Notes under the pieces: generated by a model
The model's database searches: none
What the model was told of the DNA's origin: nothing
What the model saw: only the letters and a program-made list of their open reading frames with translations
Made by a program: the position numbers and the translations under genes
Virus record (IMG/VR): IMGVR_UViG_3300009164_000117
Span: 1-48,319 of that record
DNA length: 48,319 nucleotides
Direction: 5' to 3' (one strand)
Source: a virus
In this document: one piece after another, positions 1 through 26,999 of the stretch
Layout: the number at the start of each line of letters is the position of its first letter
Numbering within the stretch: the first letter of the stretch is position 1

Positions 1-41
1 CTGTATGGTATTCTGTATGGGATTACTTCGAACAAAAATGA
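1..41 (+). CDS. 3' end of a tetrapeptide-repeat (SV) protein, cut by the window edge
   Basis: Read from base 3, the frame gives VWYSVWDYFEQK and then TGA at 39-41. This is the same C-terminal signature (repeat, then DYF and a few polar residues) as the complete genes downstream. The start lies outside the window. Its stop overlaps the ATG of the next unit as ATGA. Function unknown. Confidence 0.75.
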   Translation, partial: VWYSVWDYFEQK

Positions 42-270
42 TTATGAATAAAATTAATAAATCTGTAGGGAATTCTGTATGGGATTTTGTAGGACGTTCT
101 GTATGGGATTTGTAGGACGTTCTGTAAATGATTCTGTATGGGGAGGTGGTGTAGGGACTTCTGTAAGGCGTTCTGTAAGGAATTCTGTAGGGAATTCTGT
201 AGGGAATTTTGTATGGGGTTCTGTAAATGATTCTGTAGGAGATTACTTTTCAAAACGAACTCTGATATAA
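38..270 (+). pseudogene. SV tetrapeptide-repeat gene broken by a 1-bp frameshift
   Basis: The frame opens with ATG at 38 (MIMNKINKSVGNSV...) and hits TAG at 113-115 after 25 codons. The run GATTTG at 108-112 is one T shorter than the homologous GATTTTG 36 bp upstream. Restoring one T joins it to the +2 frame, which runs on through NDSV...GDYFSK to TAA at 268-270. This looks like a single-base loss in a T run, or a sequencing error. Without correction only a 25-residue peptide would be made. Confidence 0.7.
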
Positions 271-277
271 TAAAGCA

Positions 278-493
278 ATGAATAACTCTATCGTTTATAA
301 AGCTGTTGTAGATTCTATAAGGATTTCTGTCAGGGATTCTGTAGGGTGTGCTGCATGGTATTCTATAATGGAATTCTTACAGAATTATGTAGGGATTTCT
401 GTAAGGAATTCTGTAAGAGATTCTGTAGCGGGTTCTGTAGGGGATTCTGTATGGCGTTCTGTAAATGAGTCTATAGGAGATTACTTTCAATAA
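278..493 (+). CDS. SV tetrapeptide-repeat protein, 71 aa
   Basis: Begins MNNSIVYKAVV, the family N-terminus, then about 14 four-residue units of the form x-S-V-x, and ends GDYFQ. A degenerate patch in the middle (GCAAWYSIMEFLQNY) breaks the S-V register and shows that some units tolerate drift. It has no signal peptide, cysteine pattern or catalytic motif. It is preceded by the promoter-like element at 254-272. Not recognised; a structural repeat protein is the safest description. Confidence 0.75.
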   Translation: MNNSIVYKAVVDSIRISVRDSVGCAAWYSIMEFLQNYVGISVRNSVRDSVAGSVGDSVWRSVNESIGDYFQ

Positions 494-512
494 AACGAAC
501 TCCGATAAAATA
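494..512 (+). promoter_or_regulatory. Array promoter-like element (GATAAAATA version)
   Basis: Representative of the element before most SV genes: AACGAACTCCGATAAAATA followed by AAGCAATG. Copies with small changes lie near 254, 731, 1339, 2009, 2515, 2741, 3002, 3236, 3554, 3782 and 4147. The likely -10 is TAAAAT, weaker than the TATAAT of the same element at 5575-11945 (the copy at 254 has TATAAT). The distance to ATG is only about 6 bp. Confidence 0.6.
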
Positions 513-517
513 AAGCA

Positions 518-745
518 ATGAATAACTCTAGCATTCGTAAAGCTGTTGTAGATTCTGTAGAGAGTTCTGTAGGAGCTTCTGTACATTATTCTGTAGGGTT
601 TTCTGTATGGCGTTCTACATGGAGTTCTATAGGGAGTTCTGTATGGAGTTCTGTAGCGGGTTCTGTAAATGATTCTGTAACGAATTCTGTAGAGAGTTCT
701 GTAGAGGATTCTGTAAATGATTACTTCGCAAACGAACTCCGATAA
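518..745 (+). CDS. SV tetrapeptide-repeat protein, 75 aa
   Basis: Family N-terminus MNNSSIRKAVV, about 15 units with S-V nearly invariant (SSVE, ASVH, FSVW, SSIG), and C-terminus NDYFANELR. The last residues NELR are encoded by the promoter-like element of the next gene (731-749), so the coding end and the next gene's control site are the same bases. Weak ribosome site AAAG just before the ATG. Function unknown. Confidence 0.78.
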   Translation: MNNSSIRKAVVDSVESSVGASVHYSVGFSVWRSTWSSIGSSVWSSVAGSVNDSVTNSVESSVEDSVNDYFANELR

Positions 746-754
746 AATAAAGCA

Positions 755-916
755 ATGAATAACTCTAACATTTATAAAGCTGTTGTAGATTCTGTCTGGC
801 GTTCTGTATGGCGTTCTGTATGGGATTCTGTAAAGACTTCTGTAGCGGGTTCTGTAAAGGCTTCTGTAAATGATTCTGTAGGAGATTACTTCTCAAAACG
901 AACTACGCTAAAATAA
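755..916 (+). CDS. SV tetrapeptide-repeat protein, 53 aa
   Basis: ATG at 755 gives MNNSNIYKAVVDSVWRSVWR..., about 9 units, then GDYFSKRTTLK and TAA at 914-916. An extra A before the promoter-like element shifts the tail, so it ends KRTTLK instead of NELR. It follows the previous gene by 9 bp. Same family and same unknown function as its neighbours. Confidence 0.7.
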   Translation: MNNSNIYKAVVDSVWRSVWRSVWDSVKTSVAGSVKASVNDSVGDYFSKRTTLK

Positions 917-920
917 AGGA

Positions 921-1106
921 ATGAACAACTTTAACATTCCTAAAGCTGTATGGGATTCTGTAGAGAATTCTGTATGGCAGTCTATACGGAATTCTGTAAG
1001 AGATTCTGTAAGGAATTCTGTAAGGAATTCTGTATGGAGTTCTGTAGAGGGATCTGTAGAGGATTCTGTATGGGATTCTGTAAGAGATTATTTCGAAACA
1101 AAATGA
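921..1106 (+). CDS. SV tetrapeptide-repeat protein, 61 aa
   Basis: MNNFNIPKAVW start, about 12 units rich in NSVR and DSVW, ends RDYFETK. This copy and the one at 3261 have a better ribosome site (AAGGA) than the AAAGC of the others. No non-repeat domain is present. Confidence 0.77.
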   Translation: MNNFNIPKAVWDSVENSVWQSIRNSVRDSVRNSVRNSVWSSVEGSVEDSVWDSVRDYFETK

Positions 1107-1125
1107 CTATAAATAAAATAAAGCA

Positions 1126-1353
1126 ATGAATAACTCTACCGGTTATAAATCTGTTGCGGATATTGTCTGGAATTCTGTAAGTAGTTCTGTAGGGAATTCT
1201 GTATGGAATTCTGTAAGTAGTTCTGTAGGGAATTCTGTAAGGAGTTCTGTAAGGGATTCTGTATGGGATTCTATAATGGTTTCTGTAATGGTTTCTGTAA
1301 TGGTTTCTGTAGAGGATTCTGTAAGGGATTACTTCGCAAATGAACTCCGATAA
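1126..1353 (+). CDS. SV tetrapeptide-repeat protein, 75 aa
   Basis: Starts MNNSTGYKSVADIVW. It contains a repeated block (NSVSSSVGNSVW) of the type also found in the 2539 and 3261 genes, and a recent-looking triplication MVSVMVSVMVSV, which suggests unit gain by slippage. Ends RDYFANELR, with the tail again encoded by the next promoter-like element. Confidence 0.77.
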   Translation: MNNSTGYKSVADIVWNSVSSSVGNSVWNSVSSSVGNSVRSSVRDSVWDSIMVSVMVSVMVSVEDSVRDYFANELR

Positions 1354-1362
1354 AATAAAGCA

Positions 1363-1440
1363 ATGAATAACTCTGATATTCGTAAAGCTGTAAGGAATTC
1401 TGTAAGGAGTTCTGTAAGGGATTACTTCGAACAAAAATGA
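1363..1440 (+). CDS. Minimal SV-repeat protein, 25 aa
   Basis: ATG at 1363 encodes MNNSDIRKAVRNSVRSSVRDYFEQK. It has the complete family N-terminus and the DYFEQK C-terminus with only about three repeat units between. It is either a contracted allele or a natural minimal member. Its stop overlaps the next ATG (ATGA). Confidence 0.6.
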   Translation: MNNSDIRKAVRNSVRSSVRDYFEQK

Positions 1441-1646
1441 TTATGAACGACTCCACTATTCGTGAAGCTGCAAGCATAGGTAGTTCTATATGCACTTCTA
1501 TAGAGAATGACGCATGGTATTCTATAATTAATGCTGTAGACGATTCTATATGGGAGCTTGTAATGAATTCTCTATTAGATTCTGGATGGGAGTCTATAAG
1601 GGATTCTGTAGAGGATTCCGTAAGTGATTACTTTACAAATACATAA
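1437..1646 (+). CDS. Divergent SV-repeat protein, 69 aa
   Basis: Begins MIMNDSTIREAASIGSS (an alternative start is the Met at 1443) and ends SDYFTNT. The repeats are more degenerate than elsewhere (WYSIINAVDDSIWELV), so this is probably one of the older members. It is coupled to the preceding mini-gene by an ATGA overlap. Last member before the unrelated gene at 1665. Confidence 0.72.
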   Translation: MIMNDSTIREAASIGSSICTSIENDAWYSIINAVDDSIWELVMNSLLDSGWESIRDSVEDSVSDYFTNT

Positions 1647-1664
1647 TAAAATTAATAATTAATA

Positions 1665-1946
1665 ATGAAAACTGACACACTAAATATTAGCTACGATAGA
1701 ACACAGAAAGAGTGGAGCGTAAGCTATAAAAGATCTGATATTGAGCGAATTGATCATGTACCCGAGCCATCTAAAATGGGATTCTATCACTTTCATCGAA
1801 AAATTGGACCAAAAAAAGCTTTTGCTGAACTCAAAAAGTTTTTGATAGACGAAACAAATAAAGAAATTTTATCGCTTCAAGAATATATAAATGAAATGAA
1901 TGCTCTACAATTGCCCGATTGGATTACTAATAAAAAAAAGAACTGA
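1665..1946 (+). CDS. Small non-repeat protein inside the SV array, 93 aa
   Basis: Encodes MKTDTLNISYDRTQKEWSVS..., an ordinary soluble-looking sequence with a basic and acidic C-terminal half (AFAELKKFLIDETNKE) and no SV units. It is preceded by AATTAATAATTAATAATG instead of the array's promoter-like element. Directly after its TGA lies the headless 3' end of an SV gene, so it seems to have replaced the 5' part of an array member. I do not recognise the family. Confidence 0.7.
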   Translation: MKTDTLNISYDRTQKEWSVSYKRSDIERIDHVPEPSKMGFYHFHRKIGPKKAFAELKKFLIDETNKEILSLQEYINEMNALQLPDWITNKKKN

Positions 1947-2028
1947 TTCTGTAGTGAGTTCTGTAGAGCGTTCTGTATGGGATTCTGTAGAAGATTATTT
2001 TCAAACAAAACGAACTCCGCTAAAATAA
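1945..2028 (+). pseudogene. Headless 3' remnant of an SV-repeat gene
   Basis: An open frame reads DSVVSSVERSVWDSVEDYFQTK and ends TAA at 2026-2028. It has no start codon or family N-terminus because the 93-aa gene directly abuts it. It keeps the DYF ending and the promoter-like element of the next gene (about 2009-2027). Confidence 0.7.
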
Positions 2029-2032
2029 AGCA

Positions 2033-2311
2033 ATGAATAATTTTAACATTAGTGAAGCTGTATGGGATTCTATAAGGGATTCTATAAGGGATTCTGTAGG
2101 AAATTCTGTAAGCCTTACAGAATTAAATTCTGTAAGGCGTTCTATAGGGAATGCTGTATGGCGGACTGTAGCGGCTTCTGTAGCGGATTCTGTATGGGAT
2201 TCTGTATGGGATTCTTGGTATTCTGTAAGGAATTCTGTGAGCGATTCTATAGGAGCTTCTGTAAGGGTTTATGTAAGAGATTCTGTAAAAGATTACTTCG
2301 AACAAAAATGA
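2033..2311 (+). CDS. SV tetrapeptide-repeat protein, 92 aa
   Basis: Starts MNNFNISEAVW and ends KDYFEQK. About 20 units, with one interruption (SLTELNSV) and one spacing slip (DSWYSV). The second longest copy. Its 3' end overlaps the following gene's ATG (ATGA). Confidence 0.77.
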   Translation: MNNFNISEAVWDSIRDSIRDSVGNSVSLTELNSVRRSIGNAVWRTVAASVADSVWDSVWDSWYSVRNSVSDSIGASVRVYVRDSVKDYFEQK

Positions 2312-2526
2312 TTATGACAAATTTTAACATTCGTAAAGCTGTATGGGATCCTGCAATGTATTCTGCAATGTATTCTGCAATGTATTATGTAAAGGCTTCT
2401 GTAGCGAGTTCTGTATGGTATTCTATATCGCATTCTGTAGAGGGTTCTGTATGGGGTTCTGTACGGGGGCCTATATGGGGTTCTGTAAGGGATTCTGTAA
2501 GAGATTACTTTTCAAACGAACTCTGA
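2308..2526 (+). CDS. SV tetrapeptide-repeat protein, 72 aa
   Basis: Start chosen at ATG 2308 (MIMTNFNIRKAVW), which gives the family N-terminus; the longer open frame from 2062 is an out-of-frame reading of the preceding gene. It contains PAMYSAMYSAMYYV, where Ala replaces Ser and Tyr the following residue, so the four-residue period survives substitution of its core. Ends RDYFSNEL. Confidence 0.75.
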   Translation: MIMTNFNIRKAVWDPAMYSAMYSAMYYVKASVASSVWYSISHSVEGSVWGSVRGPIWGSVRDSVRDYFSNEL

Positions 2527-2538
2527 TAAAATAAAGCA

Positions 2539-2754
2539 ATGAATAACTCTAATATTCGTAAAGCTGTAGTGGATTCTGTAGAGAATTCTGTATGGCAGTC
2601 TGTATGGAATTCTGTAAGTAGTTCTGTAGGGAATTCTGTAGGGAGTTCTGCATGGAATTATGTAGGGGCTTCTGTAAGGGATTCTGTATGGAGTTCTGTA
2701 AGTGTTCCTACAGAGGATTCTGCAAAAGATTACTTTTCAAACGAACTTCGCTAA
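2539..2754 (+). CDS. SV tetrapeptide-repeat protein, 71 aa
   Basis: MNNSNIRKAVVDSVENSV start, then NSVWQSVWNSVSSSV, a segment shared with the 921, 1126 and 3261 genes. Ends KDYFSNELR. The 3' codons coincide with the next promoter-like element. Confidence 0.77.
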   Translation: MNNSNIRKAVVDSVENSVWQSVWNSVSSSVGNSVGSSAWNYVGASVRDSVWSSVSVPTEDSAKDYFSNELR

Positions 2755-2763
2755 AATAAAGTA

Positions 2764-3027
2764 ATGAATAACTCTAATATTCGTAAAGCTGTAGAGAATT
2801 CTGTATGGCAGTCTGTATGGGATTCTGTAAGAGATTCTGTAAGGAATTCTGTAGAGGATTCTGTATGGAATTCTGTAGAGGAGTCTGTAGAGGAGTCTGT
2901 AGCGAATTCTGTAAGGGTTTATGTATGGGATTCTGTAGGGGATTCTGTAAGAGGTTCTGTAGGGGTTTCTGTATGGGATTATGTAGAAGATTATTTTAAA
3001 ATGAACTCCGATAAAATAAAGCAATGA
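2764..3027 (+). CDS. SV tetrapeptide-repeat protein, 87 aa
   Basis: MNNSNIRKAV start, about 17 units including EESVEESVANSV. It runs past the usual end into the promoter-like element in another frame, giving the tail EDYFKMNSDKIKQ. Its TGA overlaps the ATG of the next gene, so the two are translationally coupled. Confidence 0.76.
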   Translation: MNNSNIRKAVENSVWQSVWDSVRDSVRNSVEDSVWNSVEESVEESVANSVRVYVWDSVGDSVRGSVGVSVWDYVEDYFKMNSDKIKQ

Positions 3028-3248
3028 ATAACTCTAGCATTCGTAAAGCTGTTGTAGATTCTGTAAGTAGTTCTGTAAGTAGTTCTGTATGGAATTCTAT
3101 AAGGGATTCTGTAAGTAGTTCTGTAGGGAATTCTGTAAGGAGTTCTGCATGGAATTATGTAGGGTATTCTGTAGTGCGTTCTATAAAAGATTTTGTATCG
3201 GATTCTGTAAAAAATTCTGTAGAAGATTACTTTTCAAACGAACTTTGA
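3024..3248 (+). CDS. SV tetrapeptide-repeat protein, 74 aa
   Basis: MNNSSIRKAVVDSVSSSV start. A central block SSVGNSVRSSAWNYVG closely matches one in the 2539 gene, which suggests gene conversion or unequal exchange between copies. Ends EDYFSNEL. Confidence 0.77.
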   Translation: MNNSSIRKAVVDSVSSSVSSSVWNSIRDSVSSSVGNSVRSSAWNYVGYSVVRSIKDFVSDSVKNSVEDYFSNEL

Positions 3249-3260
3249 TAAAATAAAGGA

Positions 3261-3572
3261 ATGAATGACTCTATCGTTTATAAAGATGTTGCGGCTACTG
3301 TCTGGCGTTCTGTAAGTAGTTCTGTAGGGAATTCTGTATGGAATTCTGTAAGTAGTTCTGTAGGGAATTCTGTATGGAATTCTGTATGGAATTCTGTAAG
3401 GAGTTCTGTAGGGAATTCTGTAAGGGATTCTGTAGGGGGTTCTGTAAATAATTCTGTAGCGAATTCTGTAAGGAATTCTGTATGGAATTCTGTATGGGAT
3501 TCTGTATTTAATTCTGTAAGGAATTCTGTAATGGGTTCTGCAAAAGATTACTTTTCAAACGAACTCTTATAA
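3261..3572 (+). CDS. Longest SV tetrapeptide-repeat protein, 103 aa
   Basis: MNDSIVYKDVAATVW start and about 22 consecutive in-register units (NSVWNSVSSSVGNSV and similar), ending KDYFSNELL. It has the better ribosome site AAGGA. Most of its length is nearly perfect 12-bp repeat, so it is likely the most recently expanded copy. Confidence 0.78.
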   Translation: MNDSIVYKDVAATVWRSVSSSVGNSVWNSVSSSVGNSVWNSVWNSVRSSVGNSVRDSVGGSVNNSVANSVRNSVWNSVWDSVFNSVRNSVMGSAKDYFSNELL

Positions 3573-3581
3573 AATAAGGCA

Positions 3582-3809
3582 ATGAATAATACTATCATTC
3601 GTAGGACTGTAAGGGATTCTGTATGGGATTCTGTATGGGATTCTGTATGGGATTCTGTAGGGCGTTCTGTAAGGGATTCTGTAAGGCGTTCTGTATGGCA
3701 TTCTGCAATGGATTCTGTAAGGGTTTCTGTAGTGGTTTCTGTATGGCGTTCTGTAGAGAATTCTGTAACAGATTACTTTCAAACGAACTCCGATAAAATA
3801 AAGCAATGA
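3582..3809 (+). CDS. SV tetrapeptide-repeat protein, 75 aa
   Basis: MNNTIIRRTVRDSV start, then a run of four near-identical DSVW units. Ends TDYFQTNSDKIKQ after reading through the promoter-like element. Its TGA overlaps the next ATG. Confidence 0.76.
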   Translation: MNNTIIRRTVRDSVWDSVWDSVWDSVGRSVRDSVRRSVWHSAMDSVRVSVVVSVWRSVENSVTDYFQTNSDKIKQ

Positions 3810-3961
3810 CCAATACTATCATTCATAAAGCTGTAAGGGTTTCTGTAAGGGATTCTGTGGGGGCTTCTGTATTGGGTTCTGTATGGCATTCTGTATGGGA
3901 TTCTGTAGGGTCTTCTGTAAGGTATTCTGTATGGGATTACTTCAATAAAATAAAGCAATGA
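3806..3961 (+). CDS. SV tetrapeptide-repeat protein, 51 aa
   Basis: ATG at 3806 gives MTNTIIHKAVRVSV..., about 9 units, then WDYFNKIKQ and TGA at 3959-3961, overlapping the next ATG. The promoter-like element before the next gene is truncated here: GAACTCCG is missing and only the AATAAAATAAAGCA part remains. The downstream gene may therefore depend on coupling. Confidence 0.7.
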   Translation: MTNTIIHKAVRVSVRDSVGASVLGSVWHSVWDSVGSSVRYSVWDYFNKIKQ

Positions 3962-4173
3962 ATAACTTTACCATTCGTAAAGCTGTATGGGGTTCTGTAT
4001 GGGATTCTGTAGAGGATTCTGTAGAGGATTCTGTATGGTATTCTATATCGCATTCTGTAGAGGGTTCTATATGGGGTTCTGTAAGGAATTCTGTAAGGAG
4101 TTCTGTAGGGAATTCTGTAGCGGGTTCTGTATGGGATTATTTTAAAATGAACTCTGATAAAATAAAGCAATGA
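3958..4173 (+). CDS. SV tetrapeptide-repeat protein, 71 aa
   Basis: MNNFTIRKAVWGSVWDSV start. A segment YSISHSVEGS(I/V)WGSV is shared with the 2308 gene. Ends WDYFKMNSDKIKQ, overlapping the next ATG. Confidence 0.76.
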   Translation: MNNFTIRKAVWGSVWDSVEDSVEDSVWYSISHSVEGSIWGSVRNSVRSSVGNSVAGSVWDYFKMNSDKIKQ

Positions 4174-4331
4174 ATAACTCTAACATTCGTAATTCTGTAG
4201 CGATTTCTCTAGAGGATTTTGTAAGTAATTCTGTAGAGGGTTCTGTAAGTGATTCTGTATGGGTTTCTGTAGCGTGGTTTGTACATGATTCTATAGTAGA
4301 TTACTTTCAAAATAAAATGACCTCAAAATAA
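4170..4331 (+). CDS. Last SV-repeat protein of the array, 53 aa
   Basis: ATG at 4170 gives MNNSNIRNSVAISLEDFV..., with degenerate units (AWFVHDSI), then VDYFQNKMTSK and TAA at 4329-4331. It is the most diverged copy and marks the right edge of the array. Confidence 0.68.
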   Translation: MNNSNIRNSVAISLEDFVSNSVEGSVSDSVWVSVAWFVHDSIVDYFQNKMTSK

Positions 4332-4795: not shown

Positions 4796-5057
4796 CCTCT
4801 TCTAAATAAACGCCGTAAAGCGTAAAATACAAGATAGAAACAAAGGATAAAGGGGTTTCTTCAAGAAGAAAATACAAAAATATCGAGACAAAAAGGGGTT
4901 TGCGGTTGAAATATGAGAGAGCGGTGAATTTCTGCTGAAAAATATGATTCTTACTAATGAGCAGACAAAAAGAAAAAAAGAAAAAAAAGGAGACAACGAT
5001 CGATCATTATGAACTTCAATATAATGATCGGGTAATAACTAACCAATACTTAAGACA
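4796..5057. other. Non-coding gap with an inverted repeat around a promoter
   Basis: No convincing gene. The purine-rich stretch 4970-4992 is A/G only. A 10-bp perfect inverted repeat (CGATCATTAT at 5001-5010, ATAATGATCG at 5021-5030) brackets GAACTTCAATATAATGA, a variant of the accessory promoter element, so a regulator or RNA hairpin could act here. Confidence 0.55.
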
Positions 5058-5471
5058 ATGACTGAAAAACCTAAATACTGTGGCGTTCTGACTTCCCCTG
5101 AAAGCAAAGCCCTTCTAAATGAACTGCGTAGCAAGATTCCAGGAATGACCGAAGCGACAATGATGCACTTCTTTATTACGGAGACCTTTAAGAACGCCGA
5201 TTTTATCGCCGCCTTTCTGGAAGATATGAACGCCGAGGCACAAATTGCCAAGGAAATCGCCGATATGACCCGCAAAGAGAAGTATCAAGCATTTCTCGCC
5301 AATGGTCGGCAACTCCGAGCTGCTGCACGCACTAAGAATCCAGCTAAGGCTCCTAAGGTCACGAAGGCTCCTAAGGTCGCGGAGACTCCTAAAGCGACCT
5401 CTCAATGGAGCATCAAAATCACCGACATCGCTCCTCCAGATGCAGAATGGTCTTGCGGAGATGAAGAATAG
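5058..5471 (+). CDS. Hypothetical protein with Lys-Ala-Pro repeats, 137 aa
   Basis: Begins MTEKPKYCGVLTSPES. Residues about 1-85 look like a compact helical domain (LLNELRSKIPGMTEATMMHFF). Residues about 95-115 are a low-complexity basic linker with repeated KAPKV, and the tail is acidic (CGDEE). Codon use is more GC-rich than in the repeat array. The promoter variant at 5011-5027 lies upstream and a long hairpin follows. The linker plus acidic tail suggests a binding or adaptor protein; function unknown. Confidence 0.65.
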   Translation: MTEKPKYCGVLTSPESKALLNELRSKIPGMTEATMMHFFITETFKNADFIAAFLEDMNAEAQIAKEIADMTRKEKYQAFLANGRQLRAAARTKNPAKAPKVTKAPKVAETPKATSQWSIKITDIAPPDAEWSCGDEE

Positions 5472-5478
5472 TATGAAT

Positions 5479-5555
5479 GCGCTGAGAAGCGCTGGGTCTC
5501 TCCTTGTTGAATACTGATTAGTATATTCTCACTGTAGTAGACAGCTTCTCAGCGC
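5479..5555 (+). ncRNA. Structured RNA or terminator-like hairpin after the 137-aa gene
   Basis: GCGCTGAGAAGC at 5479-5490 is perfectly complementary to GCTTCTCAGCGC at 5544-5555, a 12-bp closing stem. The enclosed sequence has a second short hairpin (AATACT-GATT-AGTAT). There is no U-tract, so a simple intrinsic terminator is unlikely; a stable 3' end or small RNA is possible. Confidence 0.5.
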
Positions 5556-5574
5556 TTAGCGTTAATCTCTGTTA

Positions 5575-5593
5575 AACGAACTCCGATATAATA
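5575..5593 (+). promoter_or_regulatory. Accessory-region promoter element
   Basis: AACGAACTCCGATATAATA, here before the 131-aa gene. The same 19 bases, or versions with one to three changes, recur at about 6265, 6767, 7010, 7948, 8254, 8874, 9363, 9582, 9895, 10258, 10655, 11214, 11320 and 11927. TATAAT fits a sigma70-type -10. The conserved GAACTCC directly upstream is not a standard -35 and is probably read by a phage factor. Confidence 0.65.
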
Positions 5594-5618
5594 ACTAAGT
5601 AGAAAGATAAAATCCTCA

Positions 5619-6014
5619 ATGAACGCAAATAATCGAATCGGTCTAAAGGCAGATAGTATCAGATATAAGAAGGTAGGCAATCGCTACGTTCAGGTTAACG
5701 ACCCCTACGCCTATGAAGGTCTGAGTAATGGGTGGTGGCTGGTTAAAGTCTCTCCTGAGAGTAAGACCATTCGAGCGATCGTCCATCCTAATAATGCTGA
5801 GATTAGAGCAGCTGCTCTCGATAAGGTAGATGAGCTGATGGACATTATCAGAGAAGCGGGAGAAGGTACACCAGTTAAAGCTGAGCTTACTCTAGAGGCT
5901 CTTGCAGACTGGAAGGCCTTCATTGCTAAGCATGGTGAACAGTTTAACTATATTAGCTATCCCAGTCTTCATGATGTAGCTACGAAGATCATGGACAACC
6001 TTATCAAGTCCTGA
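5619..6014 (+). CDS. Hypothetical protein, 131 aa
   Basis: Begins MNANNRIGLKADSIRYKKVG. The N-terminal half looks like a small beta domain (YVQVNDPYAYEGLSNGWWLVKVSPESKTIRAIVHPNN); the rest is helical. No transmembrane segment. It is transcribed from the 5575 element. I do not recognise the family. The first copy of a 25-nt non-coding repeat begins 18 bp after its stop. Confidence 0.65.
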   Translation: MNANNRIGLKADSIRYKKVGNRYVQVNDPYAYEGLSNGWWLVKVSPESKTIRAIVHPNNAEIRAAALDKVDELMDIIREAGEGTPVKAELTLEALADWKAFIAKHGEQFNYISYPSLHDVATKIMDNLIKS

Positions 6015-6289
6015 AATTGAAGCTCTAAAGATGCAACGCCTACAGAGATTCTGCTTTTTTACGCACAGACTCTATCAGACATACAGCTGATAGGATCAAG
6101 TGGTATCTCAATGGGACACAGGCTGGTGTCCTGAATAAAACACTACTATTACTCTAGAAAAAGATGCAACGCCTACAGAGATTCTGCTTGTTTCAACAAA
6201 TTATTAGGTCTGCCTAAGGAGACGCGTCCTAGACCAACTGCAACGCCTACAGAGATTCTGCTTTTAACGAACTAAGATATAATATTAAT

Positions 6290-6631
6290 ATGCTAACCAA
6301 TACACAATACAAAAGACTCGCTGCTTCTCAAGGGTTGACCTTAGTAACTCTCTCAGAGATGGTGCTCGGGGCCGGTGCTTACTGGAGTGATGAAGCGCTC
6401 ATTCGAGGTGTTAGCCGGCTTCTCCTCAATCAAGCAACTCCTCTGCCTAAGGCGCCAAAGAGGGTTGACCTTACCAAAGCGGAGGAAGCGAAACAGAAGT
6501 TCGACAACTTGGCCGATCAAGTGATCGAGGAGATCGGTAAGTGTAACCCGCAGAGTGTGCCCTGGGACTTTGGAGGTGAAGAGCGATGCTATTGCGACCT
6601 CTGCCGCGACGTTCGCGAAGACGAACTGTAA
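6290..6631 (+). CDS. Hypothetical protein with C-terminal Cys cluster, 113 aa
   Basis: Begins MLTNTQYKRLAASQGLTLV; its own promoter element GAACTAAGATATAATA lies just upstream (6268-6283). The C-terminal CYCDLCRDVRED is a possible zinc-binding or redox motif and resembles the CNCDDCVYLRPF end of the small gene at 9419. The N-terminal half is helical. It sits between copies three and four of the 25-nt repeat. Function unknown. Confidence 0.65.
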   Translation: MLTNTQYKRLAASQGLTLVTLSEMVLGAGAYWSDEALIRGVSRLLLNQATPLPKAPKRVDLTKAEEAKQKFDNLADQVIEEIGKCNPQSVPWDFGGEERCYCDLCRDVREDEL

Positions 6632-6662
6632 CCAGATCCTCTAACTCGTTAAGTCCCTAAGA

Positions 6663-6706
6663 GTCTCCCCACGGGCAAAAACTCCCAACTTTTTGCCCGG
6701 GGAGAC
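6663..6706 (+). ncRNA. Very stable long hairpin
   Basis: GTCTCCC at 6663-6669 pairs with GGGAGAC at 6700-6706, and CGGGCAAAAA at 6672-6681 with TTTTTGCCCG at 6690-6699, leaving an 8-nt loop and one small bulge: about 17 bp. It lies 31 nt after the 113-aa gene and 32 nt before the last 25-nt repeat. It could end or protect the transcript, but there is no terminal U-tract. Confidence 0.6.
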
Positions 6707-6831
6707 AAACATCAACAGAATAAGTCAACTCAACCAACTGCAACGCCTACAGAGATTCTGCTTTTAAACGAACTCCGATATAATAATATGAAAGTAACTG
6801 TAACTAAATAATTTCGGGCATGCCCGCTGCC

Positions 6832-8297: not shown

Positions 8298-8864
8298 ATG
8301 CAAAAAGAACAATATATTAAAATTGACGAATTCGGCGACAAATATTATTTCAGCGACAAATATATGACCTTACTTCATCGAGAAGGTGGTCCTGCTATCG
8401 AATGGTCCTACGGAGGCGGATTATGGTACCGAAATGGTAAACTGCACCGAGAGGACGGACCTGCGATTGAAACGACAAGTGGCTATAATGTATGGTATCA
8501 AGATGGAGCGATGCATCGAGAGGACGGACCCGCGATTGAATATCGCGATGGAGGTAAATCTTGGTATTATAAAGGAGTTCGTCACCGTGTAGGAGGACCT
8601 GCAGTTGAGTTTGCTGTTGCTGGCGGCGGCCCACCGCAGTGGTGGGTGAACGGTGAGCAGGTGACTTCGGTATCGGAAACGTTTTTGCAGCTGAAAAAGA
8701 TTATCGAACTGAGCTTGAGATCAGTCCGGCAGATCGATCGATTGCCAACGGCGGGGACAGCAACGGTATTGCCTGCAGTTCGTATCGATCTTCTCGAGAC
8801 CGTTGCGCTTGCTGAGAAGCTATTCAGCAAGCTGATGGATGGCAAATCTGAGTTTGAGCAGTAA
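8298..8864 (+). CDS. HREDGPAIE-repeat protein, 188 aa
   Basis: Residues about 1-110 carry four to five imperfect repeats of about 21 residues centred on LHREDGPAIE and WYxxG (LHREGGPAIE, LHREDGPAIE, MHREDGPAIE, HRVGGPAVE), a MORN/YwqK-like beta repeat common in phage proteins. Residues about 120-188 form a different helical tail. Two more repeats of the same kind are fused to the end of the 10722 gene. The promoter element lies at 8254-8272. Exact role unknown; such repeats usually make surfaces for protein contact. Confidence 0.72.
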   Translation: MQKEQYIKIDEFGDKYYFSDKYMTLLHREGGPAIEWSYGGGLWYRNGKLHREDGPAIETTSGYNVWYQDGAMHREDGPAIEYRDGGKSWYYKGVRHRVGGPAVEFAVAGGGPPQWWVNGEQVTSVSETFLQLKKIIELSLRSVRQIDRLPTAGTATVLPAVRIDLLETVALAEKLFSKLMDGKSEFEQ

Positions 8865-10721: not shown

Positions 10722-11195
10722 ATGAATAACACGCTTAACGAAAATCAAGTTTATGATGGTCAAGTTGCTTACGAAACCCGGAAGCAGCTGCGAGAGATCC
10801 GGGATCAAGCTCGAAATGAATACTTGAAGTGTCGCGAAACCTGGTGTAGAGCTCGTAAAGTGCTTGAAGAAGCTGACGATTGTGTTAATGCTAGTCTGCG
10901 CTTCTGGCGAGAGGCCTTCAGCGCAGTATCTGATGCTGAAGAGCTGGAGATGCAAAAAAATCCATACGTCAAAACTGATGAGGATGGCAACGTATTCTAC
11001 TACAAAGACGCAGCGATGACGATTCTCCACAGGGAAGATGGCCCCGCTATTGAATATAAATGCGGTGATAAGCTGTGGTATCAAAACGATAAGGTGCACA
11101 GGGAAGACGGTCCTGCTATTGAATATGCATCCGGAACTAAAGAATGGTGGTTGAATGACATTTTTCAGCGCGATCCTGTCGGATCAGCGCGATGA
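10722..11195 (+). CDS. Two-part protein: helical domain plus HREDGPAIE repeats, 157 aa
   Basis: Residues about 1-80 are helical (YETRKQLREIRDQARNEYLK and CRARKVLEEADDCV), like the 9967 and 10312 proteins. Residues about 85-150 match the 8298 protein (NPYVKTDEDGNVFYYKD, then ILHREDGPAIE and VHREDGPAIE). It therefore looks like a fusion of two modules that exist separately nearby. The 3' end overlaps a strong hairpin at 11173-11206. Confidence 0.68.
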   Translation: MNNTLNENQVYDGQVAYETRKQLREIRDQARNEYLKCRETWCRARKVLEEADDCVNASLRFWREAFSAVSDAEELEMQKNPYVKTDEDGNVFYYKDAAMTILHREDGPAIEYKCGDKLWYQNDKVHREDGPAIEYASGTKEWWLNDIFQRDPVGSAR

Positions 11196-13818: not shown

Positions 13819-16494
13819 TTAAGCCTTTACTTTTCTAATCTTCTTAGGCATCTTTACTAACTGATTAGTCTTAGGAGCTAATTTGCCTCCTGGTTCTGCA
13901 GCAATAATCTTAGAGTTTCTATTCATCCGAAGAACTACTCCATCACCATGCGATCCTTTCTTTTGCATTCTCGCTTTATATTCTTTATGATTGAGATACG
14001 CCTGTGCGGCTTTTTTGTAATAACCTGCTTTAATTAGCTTAACCCAGCCGAAATCTCCTCCGCTTGGATTGTCTAAGTCTCCACGGAACTTAATATCTAC
14101 TAGAGCTGCTTTTAACTTATTACTCATCTTCGGCCATTGCTCTCTGAACTTGGCTTGAACTGCAGGTACTCGAGTGCTTACGTCTTTCTTAAATAGTTCC
14201 AGAGCTTCTTCTCTCGATAAAGTTGATGAGAGGCCTGCCGCGTTTCTTCCTTTTTCGAAATCTTGCTTATCTTTGAGAGTACCTTTACCTATAAGATGAC
14301 CTACTCCAATAGTCCACTTACCTACATCATCTAGATAAGGTTTCATGAACTTATCGTTCGCTTTATTATAGATATCACCTCCTATAATTTCACTCGGGAG
14401 GATGAACTCGGAAGCTAACTTAACAACCACATCACCCGGTGCTTCTTTCGCTTTGACAGGTGCCGTAGGAGCTTTCTCAGCATCGTTGTCTTCACGTTTC
14501 TCTTTACGCTGCTCTTTAGCTTCGAGATCTGCTATGACTTTAGTAGCAGCTTGATGGAACTGCGGAGCTTTAATTGACTTAATCTTATTTTCGCCGTCTG
14601 CACCTTTACCTATAGCAATTTTGAGCGCTGTGATCTTTTCTCTATTTGATTCTGGTCTACTCGCTATTTCCCTTTCTAGAGTTTTAGCTCCGGATATATA
14701 TCCAGCACCGAGCGCCCCTATACCTAAAACCGTCGCTAATACTTCTTTAATACCTTCGTTAAATTGATCTGTTATTACGGTTTTGCTTTCTCTCTTACCT
14801 TCGTTTAATATTTCACGGACAACGCTATCAAAGCTTTCTTTAGATACAATATTACCTGCTAACTTACGTTTACTTTCTTCCATAGCTGCTTTTATATCTT
14901 CATCTGTAAATTCAACTGGATTATTATAACAATAAAAATCTCCTCCAACACTTTCTGGTGCTCCTTCTAAGGAAGTTAATTGATTATAAGTACAACTAAA
15001 ATTCTTTCCAACACTTTTCGGTGCTCCTTTCAAAGATGTTAATTGATTATTAGAACACTCAAAATGCCCTTCAACACTTTCCGGTGCTCTTTCCAAAGAT
15101 GTTAATTGATTACTAGAACAATCAAAAGTTCCTCTAACACTTTCCGGCGATCCTTCTAAAGATGTTAATTGATTATTAGAACAAAAAAAAGATTCTCCAA
15201 CACTTTCCGGCGCTCCTTCCAAAGAAGTTAATTGATTACCAGAACAATTAAAATATCCTCCAACACTTTTTGGTGCTCCTTCTAAAGACGTTAATTGATT
15301 ACTAGAACAATAAAAATCTCCTCCAACACTTTCCGGTATATTGTCAGGCAATCTTTCTAAAAACATTAAACCATTTAGATTGTATTTACCTGCTGCAACC
15401 ATTTTCCACGCTTCTTTATAATCTCTCTGTATTCTTTGTTGTACATATTGTATATTTCTGTCTAATTTATTAATTTTTAACGTACGAGTTTCCTCTAACT
15501 GCGGAATAGCAATCTCTCTAGTCTTTAAATACTGCTTTAGTATAGCTCCTCCTTTAGCTTCAATAGCATCAGCTTGAAGAGGAGTAAGATTAGGTCCTAC
15601 AGAAACATATTCATTTATATATTCTTGCCATAGATTATTATTCATTAAATAACTGAATATTTCATCTGTAATAGTATGACCTGATTTTAATACCATTAAC
15701 TGTAAGTCTCTTTCAGCATTTAAAAATTTTACTAACGATGGGCTGTTAGTAAAATCTCTTAAAAATTGTATGTTTGCTTTTTCTTTATCTGTTAACGGCT
15801 TATTTACAAATAAATTTTCATACTGAGCTAGCACAGGAAACTTTGCTACAACTTCTTTCCATGTAGTTTTTTTTGTATTATTAAGCTGATTTGTTCGCTC
15901 CCAGCCATTTTTTTTATGATCTAATACAAGTATATGATCAGGATTAGTCTTAGGTAGTTTTTTAAAGAATATAAAGTAAAATGTAGACTCTTTTTGTAAT
16001 CTGTAGCTATCATACATATTACCTCCTGCACGTCTTGATATACAAAATGAATATCCGTCACCATACTTTACACATTTATGTTGCGAATCGCCTGTATAAA
16101 TTGTAAGCTCATCCGTATCAACTAATTTATCAGCACTATCTTCATGTTCAATCGTAGGTGCTGGCGGTGCATTTTTAAGTTTTTGTTTAGTATCAACAGC
16201 ATCAATATGTTCTGTAAACTCTATAAAAGTTTTAAATACATTAGGCGCTTTAATAGGTATGTTTTTAGACTTAAGGTTGGTGTATAAATTAAAATATGTA
16301 GATATTTTGTTTAAGTCTTTAGTTTCGTTATAAAACTTTATTATTGTTGGCACATCACTTTTAGAAGGCGTTTGATCGAGTGCTAATAGCTTCTGTTGTA
16401 ATTCTGTATCAGAAGGAAATGTTTTCGCTAATAACGCTTCGCTTTCTCTTTTACCTTCATTTAATATTTCACGAACAATACTATCAAAACTCAT
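13819..16494 (-). CDS. LRR plus lysozyme fusion protein with two capsid-targeting-like motifs, 891 aa
   Basis: Start placed at 16494 (MSFDSIVREILNEGKRES), just after a late-like box (ATTAAATAAT). Order: targeting-like motif; about 350 residues unassigned; six to seven 21-residue leucine-rich units (core NQLTSLEGAPESVGG); a second copy of the motif (SFDSVVREILNEGKRES, about 14784-14840); a linker with a hydrophobic stretch (VLATVLGIGALGAGYI); a C-terminal lysozyme-like domain (YLDDVGKWTIGVGHLIG, matching the T4 lysozyme D20/T26 region; the catalytic Glu is probably in LASEFILPSE). Both motifs contain L-N-E, fitting gp21 cleavage. Likely a virion-packaged cell-wall enzyme, apparently made by joining two genes. 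Confidence 0.75.
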   Translation of the reverse strand: MSFDSIVREILNEGKRESEALLAKTFPSDTELQQKLLALDQTPSKSDVPTIIKFYNETKDLNKISTYFNLYTNLKSKNIPIKAPNVFKTFIEFTEHIDAVDTKQKLKNAPPAPTIEHEDSADKLVDTDELTIYTGDSQHKCVKYGDGYSFCISRRAGGNMYDSYRLQKESTFYFIFFKKLPKTNPDHILVLDHKKNGWERTNQLNNTKKTTWKEVVAKFPVLAQYENLFVNKPLTDKEKANIQFLRDFTNSPSLVKFLNAERDLQLMVLKSGHTITDEIFSYLMNNNLWQEYINEYVSVGPNLTPLQADAIEAKGGAILKQYLKTREIAIPQLEETRTLKINKLDRNIQYVQQRIQRDYKEAWKMVAAGKYNLNGLMFLERLPDNIPESVGGDFYCSSNQLTSLEGAPKSVGGYFNCSGNQLTSLEGAPESVGESFFCSNNQLTSLEGSPESVRGTFDCSSNQLTSLERAPESVEGHFECSNNQLTSLKGAPKSVGKNFSCTYNQLTSLEGAPESVGGDFYCYNNPVEFTDEDIKAAMEESKRKLAGNIVSKESFDSVVREILNEGKRESKTVITDQFNEGIKEVLATVLGIGALGAGYISGAKTLEREIASRPESNREKITALKIAIGKGADGENKIKSIKAPQFHQAATKVIADLEAKEQRKEKREDNDAEKAPTAPVKAKEAPGDVVVKLASEFILPSEIIGGDIYNKANDKFMKPYLDDVGKWTIGVGHLIGKGTLKDKQDFEKGRNAAGLSSTLSREEALELFKKDVSTRVPAVQAKFREQWPKMSNKLKAALVDIKFRGDLDNPSGGDFGWVKLIKAGYYKKAAQAYLNHKEYKARMQKKGSHGDGVVLRMNRNSKIIAAEPGGKLAPKTNQLVKMPKKIRKVKA

Positions 16495-16535
16495 ATGATT
16501 ATTTAATCTAAACATAAGAAAGCAGTTCTTTAATC

Positions 16536-25505: not shown

Positions 25506-26999
25506 TTAACCACCAATAACCCACACTCCATTCACTACAATTACCGGTGAGTGATTTGCTCCGCCACCTGCAGCAGCAGTACCGATATTGATTCCATTAT
25601 AAGCAAGCGTAGAATTAGTGATATAAGCGCGTGCACCGTTTCCGGCTATAGCAGCAGCGGGGAGAGAGTCGAATAATGTAGCAGTGGTTTTAACATAAGT
25701 TCCAGCAACAATATCTGCAGCAGCAGCTATACCTGCACCAGCTGCTATCCCTGTACCAGCGACAATACTTGTTCCAGCAACAATCCCTGCACCAGCAGCT
25801 ATCCCAGCACCAGCTGCTATCCCTGTACCAGCGACAATATTTGTACCAGCTGCTATTCCTGTACCAGCGACAATATTTGTACCAGCTGCTATCCCTGTTC
25901 CAGCGACAATACTTGCAATAGCAATAATACTTGCACCAGAGGCTATATTTCCTCTAACATAAGAGTTACCTAAGACTGTTGAATCACCAGCAACAGTTAA
26001 TTTACCTTTCATCACTGTATCTTGTTCAACAGTAAGTTTAGAATCTATATTTGTTTGTTGAGAAACGATATTAACATTACCATCGCTTTTTAATTCTGTG
26101 TACTTAGAAGTTACATAAACGGAGCCTGGCGACGCTACCATAACCTGTGACCCGCCGATAACTGTCATGCCGGTGCCAGCAAACTTCATTGAACCTGCAG
26201 ATTTAATATCAATACCCCCAGCGCCTGCTTGAAGATTTATTTTCGTTGCTGCATTAACTGTTACATCACCTAAGGGAATAGTAGATGCTGTATTAACTTC
26301 ATTAAATTGCGGAACAAGTGCCGGTTCATCAGTTATAACACCAGCATAGCCAACTCCAGTATATGTTGATCCGCCTTTTACTTCTCTTGCATCTTTTTGC
26401 AAATTACCTGAGTCAAAATTTGCAGGACTAGTACCTGCAACTATATTAATATGTTTACATGACAGAAAGTGAAGATTACCGCCCTCGCCCATACTTTGAG
26501 CTATTTGAGTTAATTCTTCTTCTTTTTCTTTTAATAAATTTTGAACGTCTTCAGGACTACCAGCTAATTCAGCGCCTGAATTATTACCAGTACCTGGAAT
26601 ACCATTTTCAGGTATACTTTGCATAGCTGCAATTTCTGCCTGTACTTCTATATATCTTGAAGCGAGAATATTATTTAAAAATTGTGGAGAGCCTGTTATG
26701 AAGTGATGATCGCCAAATGTTCGATCTTCTTTATTTGTATAAGTTAAAGTATGGTGATTGCCTTTAACTGTTGTAAAGCTATCGCCTTGAGTTAGAACTT
26801 GTCTGTTATTTGGATTAAATTCAGTAGTAACTTGATTACCAAATACTAGACTTGCACCTCCTCTATGTGCTAAACTTACACTCTCTGAACCAGTTGTATT
26901 ATTAAAAGTAATCGTACCGGCGCTATGATTCCACACCGCTTCATTACGATACATATTTAACTCATTTGGATTTAAAACAGGTATTAATGAAATTGCCAT
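25506..26999 (-). CDS. Baseplate/spike-like protein with Ala-Gly repeats, 497 aa
   Basis: The N-terminal part has VgrG/gp5-like features (VTTEFNPNNRQVLTQGDSFT, HHTLTYTNKEDRTFGDHHFI). The middle is a run of short beta-helix-type strands (INLQAGAGGIDIKSAGSMKF). Residues about 355-440 carry about a dozen six-residue units (GIAAGT, NIVAGT), a pattern suited to a trimeric beta-helix. It follows the OB-fold protein by 6 bp. Probably the distal part of the central spike. Confidence 0.65.
   Translation of the reverse strand: MAISLIPVLNPNELNMYRNEAVWNHSAGTITFNNTTGSESVSLAHRGGASLVFGNQVTTEFNPNNRQVLTQGDSFTTVKGNHHTLTYTNKEDRTFGDHHFITGSPQFLNNILASRYIEVQAEIAAMQSIPENGIPGTGNNSGAELAGSPEDVQNLLKEKEEELTQIAQSMGEGGNLHFLSCKHINIVAGTSPANFDSGNLQKDAREVKGGSTYTGVGYAGVITDEPALVPQFNEVNTASTIPLGDVTVNAATKINLQAGAGGIDIKSAGSMKFAGTGMTVIGGSQVMVASPGSVYVTSKYTELKSDGNVNIVSQQTNIDSKLTVEQDTVMKGKLTVAGDSTVLGNSYVRGNIASGASIIAIASIVAGTGIAAGTNIVAGTGIAAGTNIVAGTGIAAGAGIAAGAGIVAGTSIVAGTGIAAGAGIAAAADIVAGTYVKTTATLFDSLPAAAIAGNGARAYITNSTLAYNGINIGTAAAGGGANHSPVIVVNGVWVIGG

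Follow-up and report, generated by a model that had tools for sequence, protein, structure and literature searches.

Array of xSVx genes at the left end of the window

The DNA analysed here (the window) is a stretch of 48,319 nucleotides from a freshwater phage, covering positions 1–48,319 of IMG/VR virus record IMGVR_UViG_3300009164_000117. Its first 4331 positions hold a tandem array of small genes built from a four-residue x-Ser-Val-x (xSVx) repeat, a repeat that also occurs inside large phage proteins, among them members of DUF6745 (PF20530), a widespread and uncharacterised family of bacterial and phage proteins. All array genes are on the + strand: 17 intact members encode proteins of 25–103 aa, and with three defective copies (edge-truncated, frameshifted and headless) the total is exactly 20, in agreement with the roughly 20 tandem paralogues proposed in a preliminary description made from the sequence alone. 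Inspection of the open reading frames (ORFs) also bears out the shared N-terminus, the DYF C-terminus and the range of ~3 to 22 units per gene given there. The intact ORFs start with ATG-AAY (or ACN), encode a short N-terminal cap (MNNSNIRKAV type) followed by the four-residue units, and end in a C-terminal cap (..DYF..). The claim of a codon-phased 12-bp repeat is confirmed by Tandem Repeats Finder, which reports period 12 across the whole array. The features are as follows.

1–41, + strand: edge-truncated array member, ..VWYSVWDYFEQK
44–270, + strand: frameshifted array member MNKINKSVGNSV..; a 1-bp shift brings a premature stop at 115, after which the repeat resumes in another frame to ..DYFSKRTLI
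256–4165, + strand: 13 copies of the promoter-like motif CGAACTCCGATAWAATAA (at most 3 mismatches); most genes of the array are preceded by one, which overlaps the upstream gene at its 3' end
278–493, + strand: xSVx protein, 71 aa
518–745, + strand: xSVx protein, 75 aa
755–916, + strand: xSVx protein, 53 aa
921–1106, + strand: xSVx protein, 61 aa
1126–1353, + strand: xSVx protein, 75 aa
1363–1440, + strand: xSVx protein, 25 aa, the shortest intact member
1437–1646, + strand: diverged xSVx protein, 69 aa, clearly the most-departing member; counterpart in the related phage L355 from 6637 onward
1665–1946, + strand: 93-aa non-repeat gene inside the array; two related phages, L024 among them, have a relative with 91% identity
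1947–2028, + strand: headless xSVx tail
2033–2311, + strand: xSVx protein, 92 aa
2314–2526, + strand: xSVx protein, 70 aa
2539–2754, + strand: xSVx protein, 71 aa
2764–3027, + strand: xSVx protein, 87 aa
3024–3248, + strand: xSVx protein, 74 aa
3261–3572, + strand: xSVx protein, 103 aa, the longest; predicted alpha-helical by AlphaFold2
3582–3809, + strand: xSVx protein, 75 aa; L018 has, at 3346, a relative with matching N- and C-terminal ends
3806–3961, + strand: xSVx protein, 51 aa
3958–4173, + strand: xSVx protein, 71 aa
4170–4331, + strand: xSVx protein, 53 aa, the last in the array

The junction between the headless tail and the 93-aa gene recurs in L024 (10788–10910), which argues that the headless copy is not random debris. 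A perfect inverted repeat, CCTTACAGAATT-A-AATTCTGTAAGG, is present at 2113–2137 within the gene at 2033–2311, and suggests template switching.

Across the window there are 31 occurrences of the promoter-like motif against 0.15 expected, and 29 of them fall in the first 12 kb. Residues found beyond DYF in the array proteins (ANELR, QTNSDKIKQ, SKRTTLK) correspond to the motif of the next gene translated in different frames. In the array genes the ATG is located ~5–10 nt past the TATAAT-like part of the motif, compared with ~25 nt downstream for other genes between 256 and 12000, and the array transcripts may be leaderless.

Coding status and hypervariability of the repeat

The 12-bp unit reads x4-Ser-Val-x1, with codons that are mostly NNT TCT GTA NNG. 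A five-unit pattern is found 50 times on the + strand, and neither on the – strand nor in a reversed-pattern control. Of 183 units in the window, 182 share one third base in the Ser codon, whose first two bases are more variable; the x codons vary mainly at bases 1 and 2. Seen in one genome alone, such third-base fixity looks odd and might point to a DNA motif, but the comparison between phages answers otherwise. Loci for this comparison were collected with TCTGTA units as the first query and fully degenerate TCN GTN units as the second; the TCTGTA scans also caught unrelated SVSV, SVGA and PSV repeats, which were removed by composition and by eye. Because the TCN GTN search itself demands Ser and Val, the informative properties are the third positions that it leaves free and features that it does not demand.

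Individual loci show little or no variation in the Ser and Val codons (third-position median 0 bits), with medians of ~1.55 bits at x1 base 1 and ~0.99 bits at x4 base 2. Between 92 loci, the third base carries 1.91 bits in Ser codons and 1.84 bits in Val codons, and all synonymous forms are in use (TCG GTC, TCC GTG, TCA GTT, TCT GTA, etc.). Since these codons are fixed within a phage, yet take every synonymous form across the loci, the array is coding, and constitutes a real multigene family of small tetrapeptide-repeat proteins with hypervariable x positions. Outside the search criteria, x1 is NGG in most loci, with near-equal use of Trp, Arg and Gly, and the Arg codon at this position is AGG or CGG depending on the phage.

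Amino-acid changes are also in excess among units that differ by a single step. For unit pairs one substitution apart in the window family, 52 synonymous pairs are observed against 120 expected (p 3.5e-15), and four other families give synonymous-pair depletion ratios of 2.3, 3.7, 2.2 and 5.1. In all five arrays, which are unrelated, amino-acid changes exceed expectation 2- to 5-fold; the p-values are indicative because the unit-pair edges are not independent events. The SV frame contains no stops whereas the other frames contain some, yet these are fairly open, and the ORFs had been chosen for openness.

Variation between strains and relatives

The phages L355 and L356 represent one virus lineage with 99.4% identity over 20 kb, and the only indels besides the alignment end, of 12 and 36 bp, are both in the array, beside a patch of clustered substitutions. 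Length variation between related phages, named in the preliminary description as support for a repertoire, is present. The member at 1437–1646 is near-identical to its L355 counterpart until the last units, where a different (swapped) 3' end takes over, and over 5007–6788 the window and L018 share 93% identity, while the adjoining array differs. Two of the larger proteins that carry the repeat (L268 and L298) have gapless flanks with 88% nucleotide identity, enclosing arrays that are unlike in both length and order. These array indels, the swapped 3' end and the unrelated arrays within matching flanks are accounted for by in-frame recombination between 12-bp units: copy number and order shift in 12-bp, frame-keeping steps, and orthologous members are mosaic. 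A unit-order test gave a mixed outcome, with an excess of repeated words in 17 of 46 arrays and a scrambled appearance in the remainder; local duplication contributes to the unit order without explaining all of it.

The repeat inside larger proteins and its association with DUF6745

The same xSVx arrays are present inside two types of large phage protein. The first is DUF6745, many phage members of which hold an array with the same unit and the same variable positions in one fixed slot. When five fused and five array-free DUF6745 proteins are aligned, the array is at one place, between SP/NP and FYDFF-like motifs. The small array proteins differ in that they consist of repeat and short caps only, without a DUF6745 domain, and no match to the PF20530 profile was found for those of the window. 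The second type, MCxFFS..WRLH (B1; L243, L252, L258, L278, L281 and others), has Cys at position 2 and no Pfam family. Here too the array is embedded between conserved flanks, with identical codon behaviour, but the flanking domains are unlike DUF6745, and no small-gene array was seen beside these proteins. In most fused proteins the variable residues are W/R/G combined with D/A, and the window array is broader. A further case is L077, at the end of contig 3300042486_000458, in which the DUF6745 N-terminal region is followed by another tetrapeptide array (ATDA/ATYA/ATRD), which indicates that the DUF6745 slot accepts other four-residue repeats.

Small-gene arrays with other caps are found in other phages (MTLKDSVYN..KSYDT, MKRSLNNSVW..NKINETIT, MTTEEKILKSV..YNYDY, MILGKSIKDK..PKIKL and more). 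Phages with small-gene arrays usually encode an array-free DUF6745 protein, in most cases near the array, beside a conserved protein of ~110 residues, here called HGE (HGEA..SETTGNHHV), which is related to RQGDVL..HGEATGHHH..HEEH proteins. In whole-record profile searches, DUF6745 is present in 15 of 22 small-array records compared with 1 of 24 controls (Fisher p 5e-6), and HGE in 16 of 22 compared with 1 of 24 (Fisher p 1e-6). One control record holds both, and is itself a case of a DUF6745 gene with an ATDA/ATYA/ATRD tetrad array. Array-adjacent genes in relatives score 44.4 (L344), 34 (L348), 31.3 (L349) and 26.8 bits (L355) against PF20530, for which 27 bits is the threshold of DUF6745 membership. 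The profile missed a divergent DUF6745 relative adjoining the array of L303, a further small-array record; BLASTP aligns this relative to L265 on either side of the array position.

DUF6745 and HGE genes are located near the array in the close relatives L355 and L356 and in the contig of L018 and L073; in L355 the gene order is DUF6745, HGE, array. By analogy with L355, the corresponding genes of the window phage are predicted immediately beyond the left end. The two genes likewise occur side by side in Nocardia-class and cyanobacterial genomes, where the DUF6745 slot holds a non-repeat sequence that is helical-looking by eye, sometimes with Leu every four residues. In the alignment of HGE/RQGDVL proteins (A4; L344, L355, L241 and others), E44, H50, H86 and E103 are invariant and may possibly form a metal site. 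Two proteins in the window (8298–8864 and 10722–11195) contain LHREDGPAIEY repeats, a motif also found inside DUF6745; the product of 8298–8864 gives a sub-threshold DUF6745 match of 16.7 bits. The common motif provides another link between the early region of the window and DUF6745.

Structure prediction and database searches

For the 103-aa protein with 26 family members, AlphaFold2 predicts two long helices (H3-57 and H63-101) with a predicted local distance difference test score (pLDDT) of 72 and a predicted template-modelling score (pTM) of 0.39, and the repeat within a fused protein is also predicted to be helical, with low confidence. The xSVx proteins are therefore probably helical according to the models. 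The preliminary description had envisaged a length-variable repertoire that could form a beta-solenoid. The repertoire part is supported by the codon statistics, the strain comparison and the orthologous slots with unrelated arrays, while the solenoid part is not supported: the model is helical, with scores that are not decisive, and the cellular DUF6745 slot is helical-looking.

Profile searches returned only compositional matches for the array proteins in Pfam, PHROGs, NCBIfam and PADLOC (in PADLOC none beyond chance). As far as the repeat itself is concerned, the statement that no described family has this period is borne out in Pfam, PHROGs, NCBIfam and the PDB, within the dates of the profile libraries, but the repeat is not confined to the window phage, as shown by DUF6745 and the second large protein type. 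PDB profile matches to TLP-4 and P230 were discarded as low-complexity. Foldseek gave no significant match against the PDB and BFVD, and tblastn and blastn against isolated phages gave no matches, where the low-complexity filter probably masks the repeat. No paper on DUF6745 or the repeat words was found among open-licence papers, an absence that is not proof.

Comparison with known repeat and diversification systems

Pentapeptide repeat proteins (PF00805) similarly combine a short period and a fixed core with variable positions. The distinction from this family made in the preliminary description is upheld: the xSVx period is 4 residues (12 bp) instead of 5, the A(D/N)LXX pattern is absent, the model is helical and not beta, and no PF00805 match was found. 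Diversity-generating retroelements also produce hypervariable positions amid fixed surroundings in phage proteins. However, in xSVx arrays whole units are shuffled and the length changes, and the substitutions (T/A/G or T/C/G at x1 and A/C at x4, with the A of GTA nearly invariant) are unlike adenine-directed mutagenesis. No reverse transcriptase (PF00078) was matched in any of 21 records (the window and 20 related ones, the records being partial), and this mechanism was rejected, with no separate template search made. Transcription activator-like effectors combine a ~34-residue unit, constant but for two residues that vary, with a variable repeat number. The pair of variable residues and the variable repeat number would make xSVx proteins similar, but with a unit of four residues, and the likeness is one of analogy only.

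Proposed role of the array and alternative explanations

Coding by the array, hypervariability of the x positions and of length, recombination in 12-bp steps, equivalence of the slot, and co-occurrence with DUF6745 and HGE are the observations from which an interpretation has to start. Based on the last two, the small proteins can be read as detached arms: the small genes would encode hypervariable, interchangeable arms of a DUF6745/HGE module, diversified by in-frame recombination, a reading from sequence comparison to which we give about half of our confidence. One DUF6745/HGE core would then be served by many variable arms, each expressed from an early-type promoter of its own, the variable residues and variable length would set which partner an arm binds, and fast turnover would maintain the repertoire against a changing target in the host or in competing elements. 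A more specific version, where one core acts with up to ~20 detached tetrad-repeat proteins and the W/R/G and D/A-type residues form a combinatorial partner-binding code rewritten by in-frame recombination, is tentative and rather doubtful.

Several points weigh against the detached-arm proposal. By profile A3, 7 of the 22 small-array records are without DUF6745, several of them being fragments and one being L303 with its divergent relative. The window contig begins inside the array, and its own DUF6745 and HGE genes are placed from the relatives. The MCxFFS..WRLH proteins contain no DUF6745, and the repeat is consequently not exclusive to that module. The helix prediction is of moderate confidence, and the third-position fixity could partly stem from recent amplification rather than selection.

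An alternative is that the small proteins are stand-alone anti-defence or host-takeover inhibitors, where each early protein binds a different host factor independently of DUF6745. The early-type promoters, the small size, the diversification of units and a region rich in small unknown ORFs would fit such a role, but the DUF6745/HGE co-occurrence and the slot equivalence are left unexplained and no PADLOC match beyond chance was found, and we consider it unlikely. Recognition escape, with hosts that detect such an early phage protein and an array that furnishes antigen-like arm variants, agrees with the diversifying pattern and the unrelated arrays between close relatives; it is less likely again, as it does not by itself explain why the arms are detached and multiplied, and no sensor is known.

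A selfish or neutral minisatellite, spread by slippage and open since its composition yields no stops, would have no selected protein function. The array is indeed recombination-prone, units are homogenised per genome, the other frames are fairly open, and frameshifted and headless copies are present. This explanation is nevertheless improbable, given that all synonymous codon pairs encode the same amino acids between loci, that the W/R/G and D/A alphabets persist with either AGG or CGG for Arg, and that there is a nonsynonymous excess, a promoter for each gene, conserved N- and C-terminal caps and a fixed slot in a conserved protein. A length-tunable repertoire of surface, tail or adhesive fibres is likewise improbable, because the length variation and weak, composition-driven tape-measure and tail profile matches are set against early-type promoters, a small and helical predicted fold and the absence of structural neighbours, the structural genes being elsewhere and mostly on the other strand.

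Read as detached arms, the small proteins would define a hypervariable protein repeat with a very short period of four residues over many phage lineages, which serves either joined to a conserved module, itself shared with bacteria, or separated from it. They would give a direct way into the study of DUF6745, a Pfam entry with no assigned function, and suggest a route of phage protein diversification that needs no reverse transcriptase. We rate this kind of repeat repertoire as categorically new, with the reservation that the fused form is already in databases, unexplained, under DUF6745.

Remainder of the window

The remaining contig is that of a divergent T4-like myophage, with a major capsid protein ~33% identical to cyanophage gp23. 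On the – strand, 13819–16515 encodes an 898-aa protein that fuses 21-residue leucine-rich repeats of the CSSNQLTSLEGAPESVGG type with a phage lysozyme domain. At 25702–25947, a 36/72-bp repeat coding for GIAAGTNIVAGT-type units is located within a 497-aa protein, also on the – strand.

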